Below, in pieces: positions 1,705-17,813 of a stretch of 38,377 nucleotides of DNA. The first letter of the stretch is position 1, and each line of letters opens with the position of its first letter. The notes beneath the pieces are model-generated. The model saw only the letters and a list, made by a program, of their open reading frames with translations. It made no database searches and had not been told where the DNA came from. Location of the stretch: assembly GCA_035765895.1 (NCBI GenBank), contig DASTWL010000004.1:1-38377 (forward strand). Direction: 5' to 3'. This DNA comes from Verrucomicrobiia bacterium (GTDB lineage Bacteria > Verrucomicrobiota > Verrucomicrobiia > Limisphaerales > DSYF01). Position numbers and translations under genes: made by a program.

Positions 1705-2512
1705 CGCAGCCAAGGTGTGGTCGCCGCCCGCCGCAATCAGCTTCACGGTGTGCAGGGTCGCGGGCACATCGCACTGCCCGGCGCTGTTATCGCCCCATGC
1801 CTCAATGCTTCCGTCCTCGCGCAACGCCACGCTGTGCCCGGTTCCACCCGCAATCGCCATCGCGTTGGTGAGCGTCGCCGGCACATTGGTTTGCCCGTGG
1901 TCGTTCAGACCCCACGCCACCACCGTGCCGTCCGCCTTGATCGCCAGGCTGTGCATCCGCCCCGCCGCCACCGCCACCACGTTGCTCAGTCCCGTGGGAA
2001 CATTGGCTTGCCCCTCGGAGTCCCAGCCCCACGCCACCACGGTGCCATCGTTCCGCAGTGCCAGACTATGCAACAAGCCGGCGGCAACCGCCGTCACGTT
2101 GGTTAAATTGGCAGGAATATTCAACTCGCCATAGGTATTGTCGCCCCACACTTGGATCGTGCCATTGGTGAGCAAGGCCACGTTGTGGAACCAGCCCGCT
2201 GCCACGGCCTTCACGCCGGCCAGATTCGCCGGCACCGGCTCGCTCACGGCCGGATTCAGCGCCCGGCCCCAAACCGTCACCGTCCCGTCACCACGCACGG
2301 CAAGGCTGTGTTCGTTGCCCGCCGCCACCGCGACCGCGTTGGTCAGGTCGGCGGGGACATCCGCCCAATCGTAACCCCATTGTGTTACGCTGCCGTCTTC
2401 ACGCACCGCAACGGAGTGAAACTCGCCCGCCGCAATCGCAATGGCGTTGGTCAAGTCCAGCGGATACTCGCTCTCCCCGTCATCATCGGCACCCCAAGCC
2501 ACCGCCGAGCCA
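1705..2512 (-). repeat. Second block of seven RCC1-like coding repeats
   Basis: A second run of seven RCC1-like units lies between the second Ig-like domain and the protease domain. Typical units read AAGLLHSLALRNDGTVVAWG. Units here are shorter and more regular than in the first block, with 'NVPA/T.LTN' linkers. It probably forms a second complete seven-bladed propeller next to the protease. Confidence 0.8.
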
Positions 2513-3074
2513 TCGGCAAAAGAGGGCTCATAGTGAACCACCCATGTCCCCGCCTGGTTCGTCCCGGCGGCGTTCCAAACCTTCACCGAATATTCGCCGT
2601 CCACCGGATTGGTCTGCCACAAAGGCGTGGCGTTCGTGGGCACAACCGAATAATTCGTGTAGGTGGCATCGGCAATGGCCGCGCCATCCTTGAACCACTG
2701 ATACTGGAGGGGGAATTGCGCGGTGCCGTTGGCCGAAGCCGAAACAGACATCGGAAACCAAGTCGTAAAGGTGTAGCTGCCCGGCTGCGGCGTGACGGAG
2801 TCAATGGTGGGCGCCTCAAGCAACGTTAATGTGGCGTTGGTTGTCATTACCGAGCCCGCACCGGTCGAGATGAGCGCGCGGTAATTGCCGATATCATTTG
2901 AGGAGACGTTGGACAAGGTAAGCTGCGCGTTGGTCTCGCCGGACAGATTCACGCCGTTAAACTGCCATTGGTAATGCACTCCCGCCAGTCCGATGCCTGC
3001 GGCCGTAAATTGGGCCGTCGCCCCCGGCGCGGCGAATTGATCTGTTGGCTGGGTCAGGGTCAGTGGCGTCAACC

Positions 3075-3897
3075 GGCCCGTGCGAATGGCCAAGGCATGA
3101 TTATCGCCTGATCCAATCGCTACAATCTGTCCTTGTGCATCTGTGTATGGAAAATCAGCCAAGTCTCCCCACACGACGACTGAGCCATCGGACTGTAATG
3201 CCGTGCTGTGATAACCACCCGCTGAGACGGCCACCACGTTGGACAGCCCGGTCGGAACCATCGCCTGTCCGTAATTGAACAGGGAGCCACTGTTTGTCCA
3301 CCCTGCGCCCCACGCGACCACTGTGCCATCGGCCCGCAATGCCAGCGTGTGGCCTCCACCCGCCGCCACCGTCGTCACATTGCTCAACCCCGCCGGAACG
3401 TTGGTAACATTCCATCCAACGTAGCCATTGTTACCCCAAACCCTAACCGTCCCGTCCTGAAGCAGCGCCACAGCGTGCTCCCAACCTGCGGCTACCGCTT
3501 TAGCCGCCGGCAAACCAGTGGGCACATTGCATTGGCCATAATTGTTTGTCCCCCACGCGGTGACCGTGCCATCCGTTCGCAATGCCAAAGTAAACCCATC
3601 ACCAGCAGCGGCCATGATCGCGTTGGTTAAATCAACGGGCACAGGGCCATTCGTCGTGCCCCACACTGCCACTGTGCCGTTGCTTCGAACGGCAACCGCT
3701 TGTTCCCATTTCGCAGACAACTGCCTGATATCTGTAGTCCCAGCCAAGACATTCGTCGAACTCCCCCACGAAGTCACCGTGCCGTCATTATGCAAAACTA
3801 AAGAAAAATCAAAACCGCCGGCCACCGCCGCCGCGCCCAGCAAAGACGTCGGCACCGCCAGTTGGCCGCCATGATTCACTCCCCACGCTAATACCAT
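3075..3897 (-). repeat. First block of seven RCC1-like coding repeats
   Basis: Seven consecutive units of roughly 35-50 residues share the pattern A(A/G)G..H..AL..DGTV..WG, the RCC1 (regulator of chromosome condensation) signature. RCC1 forms a seven-bladed propeller, so seven units fit one complete propeller. The DNA repeats are diverged, which argues against a recent duplication. Confidence 0.8.
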
Positions 3898-11093: not shown

Positions 11094-11798
11094 TTAACAC
11101 CCGGGCTGACCGTAATACGCGCCGGGACCGTGTTTGCGGTTCCAGTGCTTTTTCAAAATATGCGCCGGCAAGGACTCTGCCTTCGGATTCAGCAGCAACA
11201 TTTCAAACGCCATCTGGGCGCAGGCTTCGAGCGCGATGGAGTTGTCCAGCGCCTTCTGCGGCGTCTTGCCCCACGTGAACGGCGCGTGGCCGTGCAGCAA
11301 CACGCCCGGCACGTCGTCCGGATTGAGGCCGCGTTGCTTGAAACATGCCTCGACGACCACGCCGGTGTTCGCTTCGTAACCGGTGTCGATCTCGGCTTGG
11401 GTCAGCAAGCGCGCGCATGGCACCGTGCCGCCGAAATGATCCGCGTGTGTGGTGCCGTAGCAGGGCAGTTCGCGCCCCGCCTGCGCCCACGCCGTCGCGT
11501 GCCGCGAGTGTGTATGCACCACGCCGCCAATATTCGGGAACGCGCGGTAGAAATGCAGATGTGTCGGCGTGTCCGAGGACGGACGCGCCTTGCCCTCGAT
11601 GACTTTGCCATCGGCGATGTTCAGCACGACGATGTCTTCGGGCGTGAGTTTGGCATAATCCACGCCGCTGGGCTTGATGGCCATGACGCCCGCCTGGCGG
11701 TCCACGCCGCTGACGTTGCCCCACGTGAGAATGACCAGCCCGGAATCAACCAGCGCCTTGTTGACCCGGCAGACTTCCGCTTTCAGTTCGTCAAACAT
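11094..11798 (-). CDS. araD: L-ribulose-5-phosphate 4-epimerase
   Basis: This 234-residue protein is close in length and sequence to Escherichia coli AraD (231 residues). It interconverts L-ribulose 5-phosphate and D-xylulose 5-phosphate, the last step of L-arabinose catabolism, by a zinc-dependent retro-aldol mechanism. Visible features are [10 protein letters not shown] (phosphate loop, about 25-34), [10 protein letters not shown] (about 42-51), [15 protein letters not shown] (about 74-88), the metal ligands in [10 protein letters not shown] (about 95-104), the HADHFGG segment and the later zinc His in [10 protein letters not shown] (about 168-177). Class II aldolases of the fuculose type share the fold, but the HADHFGG and HGHAPFTWG stretches point to AraD. 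It lies between araB (77-base gap containing a palindromic repeat) and the short arabinofuranosidase. No Shine-Dalgarno motif is visible. The protein is cytoplasmic. Confidence 0.96.
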
Positions 11799-11875: not shown

Positions 11876-13606
11876 TTACTTCCGCGCTTTGTCACGAATG
11901 GCAATTAGTTCCTTCATCACGTTGTGCAGATTGCCGTTCCACTGCTTGGTGCCGAAGGCGTCGTGGAGTTGCTTGTAGAGCGCGTAGAGCTTTTTGTAAA
12001 CCGCGTGGGCCTTCGGGTTCGGCTTGTAAACGGTCGGCTTGAGGCCGGTCATCTTCTTCTGCGCGGTGGCGAAGTCCTTGTGCGCGCCGGCCACGACGGC
12101 GGCGGCGATGGCGGACCCGAGCGCGCAGGTTTGCGCCGAACGGCTGATCTTCATCGGGCGGCCCGTGATGTCCGCGTAGGTCTGCATGACGAGCGGGCTT
12201 TTCTCCGCGATGCCGCCGCAGTTCACCACTTCGGAAATCTTGCAGCCGTATTCCTCGTAGCGGTTGATGATGGTCAATGCGCCGTAAGCTGTCGCCTCGA
12301 TGAGCGCGCGATAAACTTCCGCCGGGGTCGTGTAAAGCGTCTGGCCGATGAGCAGGCCGGTGAGTTGCTGGTCCACGAGCACCGTGCGATTGCCGTTGTT
12401 CCAATCGAGCGCCAGCAAACCACTTTCGCCGGGCTGAAGTTTCAACGCGGCGGCGGAGAGGTCTTCATGCGTGGCGGAGCGCGGAGCATTGCTCCGCGAG
12501 TTGGTTGACTTTGCCGCAGCTTGCGGAGCAATGCTCCGCGCTCCGGGTTCAATGTAATTCACCCACCAGTTGAAAATATCTCCCACCGCGGATTGGCCCG
12601 CTTCGATGCCGAAGTAGCCGGGCACCACGCTGCCATCCACAATGCCGCACACGCCGGGAATGTCCGCGAGCTTGGCGGTGTTCACGCGCACGCTGATGTC
12701 GCACGTGCTGGTGCCAATAATCTTCACGAGCGTCCCGGGCTTAACGCCCGCGCCAATCGCGCCGGTGTGCGCGTCGAACGCACCGACCGTCACCGGAATG
12801 CCCGCCGACAGGCCGGTGCGTTTGGCCCAATCCGCTGTGAGCGTGCCGACGGCGGAATCCACCGCGAGCACGCGCTTCGGCAAACGGTCACGCAACGCGC
12901 CGAGTTTCGGGTCGAGTTTCGAGAGGAATGCCTTGTCGGGATAACCGCCCCATTTGGCGTTATACATCGCCTTGTGACCGGCGGCACAGATGCCCGCGAT
13001 GAACTTGTCCGGATGCAGCGTGTCCGTCAGCGCGGCGGGCACGAAGTCGGAGAGTTCAATCCACGAATGTGCAGCGTTGAAGACTTCCGGCGCAGCGCGG
13101 AGGCATTTCAGGATTTTGCTGAAGAACCACTCGCTGGAATAGGTGCCGCCGCACTTGGCGAGATATTGCGGGCGCATCTTCTTCGCGAGCGTGGTGATCT
13201 CGGCGGCTTCGGCGATGCCGGTGTGGTCCTTCCAGAGCCACGCCATCGCGGCGGGATTGTTGGCGAACTTCTTCTGGAACACGAGCGGCTGGCCGTTGGC
13301 ATCCACGGGCAACGGCGTGCTGCCGGTGGTGTCCACGCCGATGCCAATGACCTGGCCGGCATGGAAGCCTTTGACAGTTTTCTTCGCCATGGCGAGCGCC
13401 TGTTTGATGGTGACTTCGGCGCCCTGGAGATAATCCGCGGGATGCTGCCGGGCGAGGTTCGGATCGCGGCTGAGGATGACGCCGGCGGTGCCGTGCGAGT
13501 AACCCCAGACGGCAGTGGCGACTTCCGCGCCGTTGGCGACGTTGACGATGAGGCAGCGAACGGAGTTCGTGCCGTAGTCCAGACCGATGGTGTATTGCGC
13601 GCTCAT
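11876..13606 (-). CDS. araB: Ribulokinase
   Basis: The 576-residue product is an FGGY-family sugar kinase that phosphorylates L-ribulose to L-ribulose 5-phosphate with ATP. AraB markers are YTIGLDYGTNSVRCLIV at the N-terminus, IGIGVDTTGSTPLPVD, the GGTYSSEWFFSKILK segment, the catalytic-base region in VGAFDAHTGAIGAG, KIIGTSTCDI, and PGESGLLALDWNNGNRTVLVD. E. coli AraB has about 566 residues. The extra length lies at about residues 354-377, where the linker reads GARSIAPQ...SRSNAPRSA and is encoded by a palindromic DNA repeat (12475-12545) inserted without breaking the frame. It follows the large arabinofuranosidase (165-base gap with a hairpin) and precedes araD. The ATG at 13604-13606 is preferred over an upstream in-frame start because the kinase fold begins right after it. 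The protein is cytoplasmic. Confidence 0.95.
   Translation of the reverse strand: MSAQYTIGLDYGTNSVRCLIVNVANGAEVATAVWGYSHGTAGVILSRDPNLARQHPADYLQGAEVTIKQALAMAKKTVKGFHAGQVIGIGVDTTGSTPLPVDANGQPLVFQKKFANNPAAMAWLWKDHTGIAEAAEITTLAKKMRPQYLAKCGGTYSSEWFFSKILKCLRAAPEVFNAAHSWIELSDFVPAALTDTLHPDKFIAGICAAGHKAMYNAKWGGYPDKAFLSKLDPKLGALRDRLPKRVLAVDSAVGTLTADWAKRTGLSAGIPVTVGAFDAHTGAIGAGVKPGTLVKIIGTSTCDISVRVNTAKLADIPGVCGIVDGSVVPGYFGIEAGQSAVGDIFNWWVNYIEPGARSIAPQAAAKSTNSRSNAPRSATHEDLSAAALKLQPGESGLLALDWNNGNRTVLVDQQLTGLLIGQTLYTTPAEVYRALIEATAYGALTIINRYEEYGCKISEVVNCGGIAEKSPLVMQTYADITGRPMKISRSAQTCALGSAIAAAVVAGAHKDFATAQKKMTGLKPTVYKPNPKAHAVYKKLYALYKQLHDAFGTKQWNGNLHNVMKELIAIRDKARK
12475..12545. repeat. Palindromic repeat element inserted in frame inside araB
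   Basis: Two perfect 23-base inverted arms (12475-12497 and 12523-12545) flank a 25-base spacer. Each arm contains a smaller near-palindrome, GCGGAGCATTGCTCCGC or its complement. This double-hairpin layout is typical of REP or MITE-like elements. It is translated in the araB frame as two similar short peptides (RSIAP and RSNAP) joined by a Gln/Ala/Lys/Ser-rich spacer. Confidence 0.88.
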
Positions 13607-16208: not shown

Positions 16209-17720
16209 TCAGGCCACGAAGCCGTGTTTCAAACCATGGGCGACCTCGTTCCATTCCAGCTCCTGCTTGAACTGGCGGACGCGGGTTTCGCGGTCAATCA
16301 CGACGAGTTCGAGCCCGGCGATATTCGCGAAATCCTCGATCATTTCCGTGGTCACCGCCTGGCTGAAGCCCGTGTGATGCGCGCCGCCCGCGTAAATCCA
16401 GCACGCGCAGGCGTCCGCAAAATTCGGCCGGGGCACCCACACTGCGCGCGCCACCGGCAGCTTGGGCATGGCCTGCGGCGCCGCCACCACGTCCACTTCA
16501 TTGACCAGCATGCGGAACCGGCTGCCGAGGTGCACCAGCGAGGCGTTCAAGCCGGGGCCCGCCGGCGTGTTGAACACGAGGCGCGCCGGATCCGCCTTGC
16601 CGCCGATGCCGAGCGGATGCACTTCGAGCGCGGCCCGGCCGTCGGCAATGCTGGGGCAGATTTCGAGCATGTGCGCGCCCAGCACGAGCTGGTTGTCCGG
16701 CTCCAAATGATAGGTGTAGTCCTCCATGAACGACGTGCCGCCCTTGAGCCCCAGCGCCATGACTTTCATCGCACGGACCAGGGCCGCCGTCTTCCAGTCG
16801 CCTTCGCCACCAAAACCGAAGCCGGCCGCCATCATGCGCTGCGAGCCAATGCCCGGCAGTTGCGCCAGGCCGTGCAAATCTTCAAACGTGTCGGTGTAGC
16901 CCTTGAAGCCGCCTTCGGTGAGGAAGTGCCGGATGCCGAGCTCGATGCGCGCCGCGGCGCGCACGGATTTGTGGCGCCGGCCGCCTTTGCGCAGGTCGGC
17001 CGTCATCGTGTAGGTGGCCTCGTATTCCTGGCAGAGCGCGTCCACTTCCTTTTCGGAAACGGCGTTCACGCGCTGGACGAGGTCGCCCACGCCGTGGGTG
17101 TTGACCGAAAAACCAAACTGCATCTGCGCGGAAACCTTGTCGCCTTCGGTCACGGCCACTTCGCGCATGTTGTCGCCGAAGCGGACGAACCGGGCGCCCT
17201 GCCAGTCGTGCCAGGCCGCCGCCGCCCGCGCCCACGCGCCGAGCCGCGCCTGCACGGCCGGATCCTGCCAGTAACCGACGACGACTTTGCGGTCCTTGCG
17301 CAGCCGGCTCCAGATGAAGCCGTGTTCGCGATCGCCGTGCGCGGCCTGATTGAGATTCATGAAATCCATGTCAATCGTGGCCCACGGAATGTCGCGATTG
17401 TGCTGGGTGTGCAGATGCGCCACCGGCTTGCGGAGCTGTTTGAGGCCGTTGATCCACATCTTGGACGGCGAGAACGTGTGGCACCAGGTGATGAGGCCGA
17501 TGCAGTTGGGCGCGTTGTTGGCGGCCTGGCACACGGCGGTGACATCGTCAGGCGACGTCATGACGGACTTGAAGACGACCTTGACCGGAATGGCGCGGGC
17601 GGCATTGAGCGCCTGAGCCACTTCACGCGAGTGCACGGCGACTTGTTTGAGGGCCTGGGGACCGTAGAGGTGCTGACTTCCGGTCACGAACCACACTTCG
17701 AGCTGCTTGAGTTTGAGCAT
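16209..17720 (-). CDS. araA: L-arabinose isomerase
   Basis: This 503-residue protein (E. coli AraA has 500) isomerises L-arabinose to L-ribulose, the first cytoplasmic step of the pathway. It begins [20 protein letters not shown], which aligns with the AraA N-terminus and supports the ATG at 17718-17720 over a GTG seven codons upstream. The manganese ligands can be placed: Glu in [14 protein letters not shown], Glu in [11 protein letters not shown], His in [12 protein letters not shown] and His in [11 protein letters not shown]. The substrate-contact region [10 protein letters not shown] and the [12 protein letters not shown] segment are intact. It is the first gene of the leftward arabinose operon, and the 286-base region upstream separates it from the divergent mutarotase/symporter operon. 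Regulation is probably by the ROK protein encoded at 21140-22312. The protein is cytoplasmic and multimeric in known relatives. Confidence 0.97.
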
Positions 17721-17813
17721 AGATCTTAAAAGATTTGGCACGCCAATCAGGGTGCGGGGCTGGCGTGAAAAGTCAGCATGACGGCAAACCGGGCAGGCGT
17801 CGAGATATTTCTT

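Follow-up and report, generated by a model that had tools for sequence, protein, structure and literature searches.

An inverted repeat inside a ribulokinase gene raises the question whether it belongs to that gene or is a mobile element that landed there and is now read as protein. The repeat occupies positions 12475–12545 of the 38,377-nucleotide stretch of DNA analyzed here (the window). Its host gene, araB (11876–13606, minus strand), encodes an L-ribulokinase of 576 amino acids. The open reading frame is intact and full-length, scoring above cut-off with NF003154 (673 bits versus 428) and TIGR01234, matching PDB entry 3qdk with E=1e-118 and aligning with proteins of order relatives. The element is read through in frame as GARSIAPQAAAKSTNSRSNAPRSA, i.e., it encodes the middle of the segment ...NWWVNYIEPGARSIAPQAAAKSTNSRSNAPRSATHEDL... 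in the minus-strand product. araB clusters with an araA-like L-arabinose isomerase gene (16209–17741, minus strand) and a downstream araD-like L-ribulose-5-phosphate 4-epimerase gene (11094–11798, minus strand), both taken from the open reading frame list, named by eye, and with homologues near araB in two relatives (G002, G045). AraB shares 78–79% and AraA 76–79% identity with the respective proteins of the two nearest relatives. Between araB and its G002 counterpart, we counted 83, 56 and 216 differences at the first, second and third codon position, respectively, so that most are at the third. This substitution pattern, together with a conservation of AraB on a par with that of AraA, fits a working gene.

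The element is an inverted doublet of 71 bp. Its left REP (12475–12497, plus strand) consists of a CGGAGC foot and the palindrome GCGGAGCATTGCTCCGC, its right REP (12523–12545, minus strand) agrees with the reverse complement of the left REP at 23 of 23 positions, and a spacer of 25 nt (12498–12522) separates them. In each arm, a GGAGC tag precedes the 17-nt palindrome GCGGAGCAWTGCTCCGC (12481–12497 and 12523–12539). For the 81-nt region, we calculated a folding energy of −38.1 kcal/mol as single-stranded DNA (z −9.4) and of −55 kcal/mol as mRNA (z −9.2), and none of 200 shuffles matched the fold. The earlier note had described two perfect, hairpin-forming 23-base arms within a ribulokinase that matches on both flanks and keeps its frame; all of this is borne out, AraB continuing in frame around a stop-free element. 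The mRNA hairpin could slow translation or be a putative RNase III target ahead of araD. We abandoned the idea that the arm is purpose-built to lack stops in all six frames, as 49% of shuffled arms were likewise stop-free.

This architecture resembles that of REPINs, i.e., two inverted REPs and a spacer on a scale of 71–110 bp, with a predicted large hairpin and a RAYT gene nearby (Bertels and Rainey 2011, PMC3116915). The araB element shares the inverted REPs, spacer, spacing scale, large hairpin and RAYT proximity, and its 23-nt unit with an 8-bp stem lies within the REP size range (hairpin palindromes of about 20–40 nt). It differs from REPINs in being intragenic rather than extragenic, in being the sole copy of its subtype in its own genome and in its foot, which reads GGAG(C)GC; the guide tetranucleotides GTAG and GTGG are absent from the hairpin foot, and neither end of the element carries a CGTC tag. 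Because of this foot, we file the element as a REP/REPIN variant and not as a canonical member. Our preferred reading, to which we assign a probability of about 0.86, is that the insert is a REPIN of a GGAG-tagged family of Verrucomicrobiota subdivision 3 that was mobilized in trans by a RAYT, entered araB after the split from the sequenced relatives, and is now translated as some 18 additional residues. What counts against it is the single doublet of the subtype in this genome, the lack of an adjacent RAYT gene there, the noncanonical guide, the missing view of an empty site within the genus, the mismatch between element length and net gain (see below for both) and the draft state of the assembly.

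The association with RAYT genes is seen in other genomes. In three species (L087, L095, L103), a RAYT gene is bracketed by copies of the araB-type palindrome, as is characteristic of REPs, with the nearest copy a few to about 50 nt upstream and about 10–16 nt downstream. The RAYT of L095 scored 98 bits with NF047646, the NCBIfam model of the REP-associated tyrosine transposase (cut-off 80), and TnpArep 4er8 is its only solved relative by sequence. All three RAYT genes moreover contain a translated in-frame REP or REP remnant (L095:3210–3259, L087:5544–5562, L103:789–802), located between the N-terminal part and the Y1 domain and missing from related RAYTs. The RAYT genes of the source genome had no araB-subtype palindrome, and other hairpins were found there instead.

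In the 4.6-Mb source genome, the two arm sites in araB are the only exact matches to the palindrome. A search allowing up to three mismatches gave background apart from these two true sites (35 versus 18 for the control); one near match had two mismatches and the others three. Among the 293 genomes of the order, 17 contained the araB-type palindrome and none the reversed control pattern, and while the source genome has one doublet of this subtype, others carry up to seven exact palindromes. The 21-mer that includes the foot was found in 39 stretches within a collection of genomes of 84,980 species. Nearly all were labelled Verrucomicrobia, Limisphaerales or Pedosphaera, the exceptions being one Acetobacteraceae-labelled genome (two stretches) and two genomes labelled only 'bacterium'. 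Many of these stretches are complete doublets with arms identical to those in araB and with varied spacers.

The source genome hosts a related family of its own. RAYTs of the same clade, both elsewhere and on contigs C58 and C72 of this genome, are often framed by different hairpins, mostly with a GGAGCGC foot; the RAYT loci L169, L170 and L172 had no such flanking hairpin. The RAYT at C58:10696–11657 (L166; 57% and 59% identity in two stretches) has a GGAGCGC doublet on each side. A pattern of the GGAGCGC foot and hairpin end matched 61 sites in the genome versus 7 for the control. These form 21 pairs less than 150 bp apart, all facing inward, with doublet lengths of 65–120 bp that cluster at 65–68 and 114–120. 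The base preceding GGAGC varies (C, T, A or G). The source genome thus harbors REPINs, and within the GGAGCGC family the araB element represents a foreign or orphan subtype. We infer that it came from another lineage, or that former sister copies and their transposase were lost. Further sites of the hairpin type flanking the C58 RAYT are spread over the genome.

Terminal inverted arms and a length of 71 bp would also suit a small MITE or another miniature element that an unrelated DDE transposase mobilizes, in which case the RAYT association would be coincidental, and HUH cleavage of the araB element is a prediction. However, copies of this very palindrome immediately enclose a RAYT gene in each of three genomes, other RAYTs of the clade sit between other GGAGCGC hairpins, and the spacers vary among copies, unlike a fixed MITE core. 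We consider such an origin improbable, though it fares best among the alternatives to the REPIN.

To place the insertion relative to other AraB proteins, we aligned the best orthologues among order genomes; the AraB query matched at some similarity in 54 of 58 genomes, many of these matches being other sugar kinases. The insert segment was absent from all aligned AraBs of about 57–79% identity, and the four distant AraBs in the alignment have a different, shorter sequence at this position. The gap amounts to 19 and 18 codons versus the two nearest orthologues, the remainder of the alignment being gap-free. It falls within a length-variable loop flanked by 'NYIEPG' and 'THEDL', a placement made by alignment to relatives and 3qdk only; an AlphaFold single-sequence model of AraB was discarded (mean pLDDT 35.8). 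No close araB was found in the same-genus genome G001, and the empty site is therefore not visible at genus level. Since 71 bp is not a multiple of three and the net gain is 54–57 bp, the site must have lost or exchanged bases unless the original loop was shorter. Third positions differ from G002 at 39% of codons, whereas the 46 arm bases show no mismatch, which suggests that the insertion is much younger than the split from G002; the arms could also have stayed equal by conversion or selection on the hairpin. A recent age, translation of the insert and a retained kinase activity of the insert-bearing AraB are probable on the REPIN reading.

These data bear on several statements of the earlier note. 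It had put AraB about ten residues above the length of the E. coli protein, which understates the extension, given the net gain of 18–19 residues versus order relatives. It had counted a peptide shared by all relatives together with a motif occurring nowhere else in the genome as evidence against a mobile repeat; the motif is indeed confined to araB in this genome, but the peptide is not common to all relatives, since close AraB proteins lack it. Its view of a REP-like mobile palindrome inserted in frame is supported, as relatives lack the peptide and further genomes of the order hold copies of the element, which flank a RAYT there. The search for a REP-associated transposase that it had suggested led to the three species named above and, in the source genome, to a related RAYT with other palindromes. 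That the repeat is an intrinsic coding feature of araB or a regulatory RNA hairpin, made by local duplication and inversion and never mobile, would agree with its sole occurrence in this genome and with the very strong mRNA hairpin. This reading is largely refuted, as many other genomes have the palindrome and the arms at loci unrelated to araB and no other aligned AraB has the element; we regard it as very improbable.

For the REPIN reading, two inverted REP copies would be mobilized in trans by a RAYT, an HUH/Y1 enzyme. By analogy with TnpA-REP, known from work on E. coli, Stenotrophomonas and Marinomonas (PMC8266576), foot and hairpin of a REP folded as single-stranded DNA would be recognized by the RAYT, which would then cut next to this REP and transfer it; RAYT-driven transposition of the araB element is inferred from this analogy. 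The doublet would have landed in the variable AraB loop with the frame kept, and a net gain of 54–57 nt, smaller than 71 nt, would reflect either a previously shorter loop or bases lost on insertion. Frame-breaking insertions would have been removed by selection.

In-frame doublets were also found in other genes. In G012, a genome of another family, araB-type doublets lie in frame in valyl-tRNA synthetase (ValS, L027) and alanyl-tRNA synthetase (AlaS, L024). Three further genomes from different families (G006, G005, G013) have in-frame GGAGCGC doublets with other hairpins at this ValS position. The AlaS position has such a doublet in G005 and long inserts of a different nature in G017 and G013. 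The loci with GGAGCGC-footed doublets in these loops are L226, L227, L228 and L230 for ValS and L210 and L218 for AlaS. The other relatives compared at these two positions had no insert. The ValS, AlaS and RAYT sites are probably loops that tolerate insertions, into which elements may have entered repeatedly, or once with a later change of hairpin. The mitochondrial byp elements are hairpins in genes that are skipped during translation, and a compact GC-rich hairpin inside a conserved gene might likewise be skipped in araB, with no peptide made. Bypassing would relieve the constraint on the frame, so that the open, stop-free frames kept in araB, ValS, AlaS and RAYT despite differing element lengths count against skipping, to which we give hardly any credence. 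An assembly or binning chimera, suggested by the draft state of the assembly (96 contigs) and the single copy of the subtype, is just as remote, given that AraB is in frame on both sides, that the element lies well inside the contig and that the genome is an estimated 96% complete with 0.05% contamination.

Translated REPs have precedents. According to Di Nocera et al. (2013, PMC3733652), dimers of GTAG and CGTC REPs inside open reading frames encode 20–30 residues, including in the verrucomicrobium Opitutus terrae, and tRNA synthetase genes are struck by intragenic REPs in other species. Common to those cases and ours are translated in-frame dimers and tRNA synthetase targets, whereas here several hairpin subtypes occur at the same ValS and AlaS loops. 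The same source summarizes Rickettsia palindromic elements, in-frame palindromes in genes for likely functional proteins; CGTC forms the end of the R. conorii repeats, and a dedicated transposase is apparently lacking for repeats of this type. The araB element is alike in its in-frame palindromes but differs in lacking CGTC and in that its palindrome flanks RAYT genes. The relevant passages of that paper do not mention araB, and GGAG does not occur in its text. Published REP feet are GTAG, GTGG, CGTC and, for one class, CnGA; we did not find a GGAG foot in the REP literature searched. The GGAGCGC foot with its perfect hairpin resembles the 3' part of the GTAGGAGCG foot of Xanthomonas and Pseudomonas REPs such as GTAGGAGCGC... 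(Nunvar et al. 2010, PMC2817692), but GTA is not conserved in the GGAGCGC family. It may descend from the Xanthomonas-type foot by loss of GTA. Translation of REP doublets within genes is hence already on record for REPs of the GTAG and CGTC types, those of Rickettsia among them (PMC3733652); new here are the GGAG tag and its RAYT clade, the araB case, and the recurrent in-frame insertion at the same tRNA synthetase loops in several families.

REPINs are usually regarded as extragenic passengers, and here one lies in a core sugar kinase. Tentatively, and at clearly less than even odds, we propose that Verrucomicrobiota subdivision 3 has a GGAG-guided REPIN-RAYT branch that has placed translated loops, time and again, at the same tolerant positions of the essential enzymes ValS and AlaS and even of the branch's own transposase, with araB as a fresh, lineage-private example. 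If true, these genomes would have a lasting source of new protein linkers, of which a part may be retained for use. With the araB case come relatives whose site is empty, sister lineages that hold its likely transposase, and two tRNA synthetases with comparable inserts. This combination makes testable at which rate protein segments are added, whether they are neutral and whether a RAYT works with a GGAG guide instead of GTAG.

Some further repeats were seen alongside. The ValS of G012 has a second in-frame insert (L027:885–953), AGFQRASSPAATQHAGGTAALPG, with the ends GGGAGCGCTGGC...GCAGCGCTCCC, which looks like another GGAGCGC doublet. The AlaS of the same genome has an in-frame SPGVSPVNISGGETPPNTGETPA segment (L024:583–672) with the inverted ends GGCGTCTCGCC and GGCGAGACGCC, possibly a different type of palindromic repeat. 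At L081:2698–2714, a single araB-type palindrome apparently encodes PRGAMLRAPH within a His-rich part of a protein that looks LarC-like by eye. Within the window, divergent direct repeats of about 97 nt at 1793–3786, spaced by multiples of three, are probably repeat units of a large protein.
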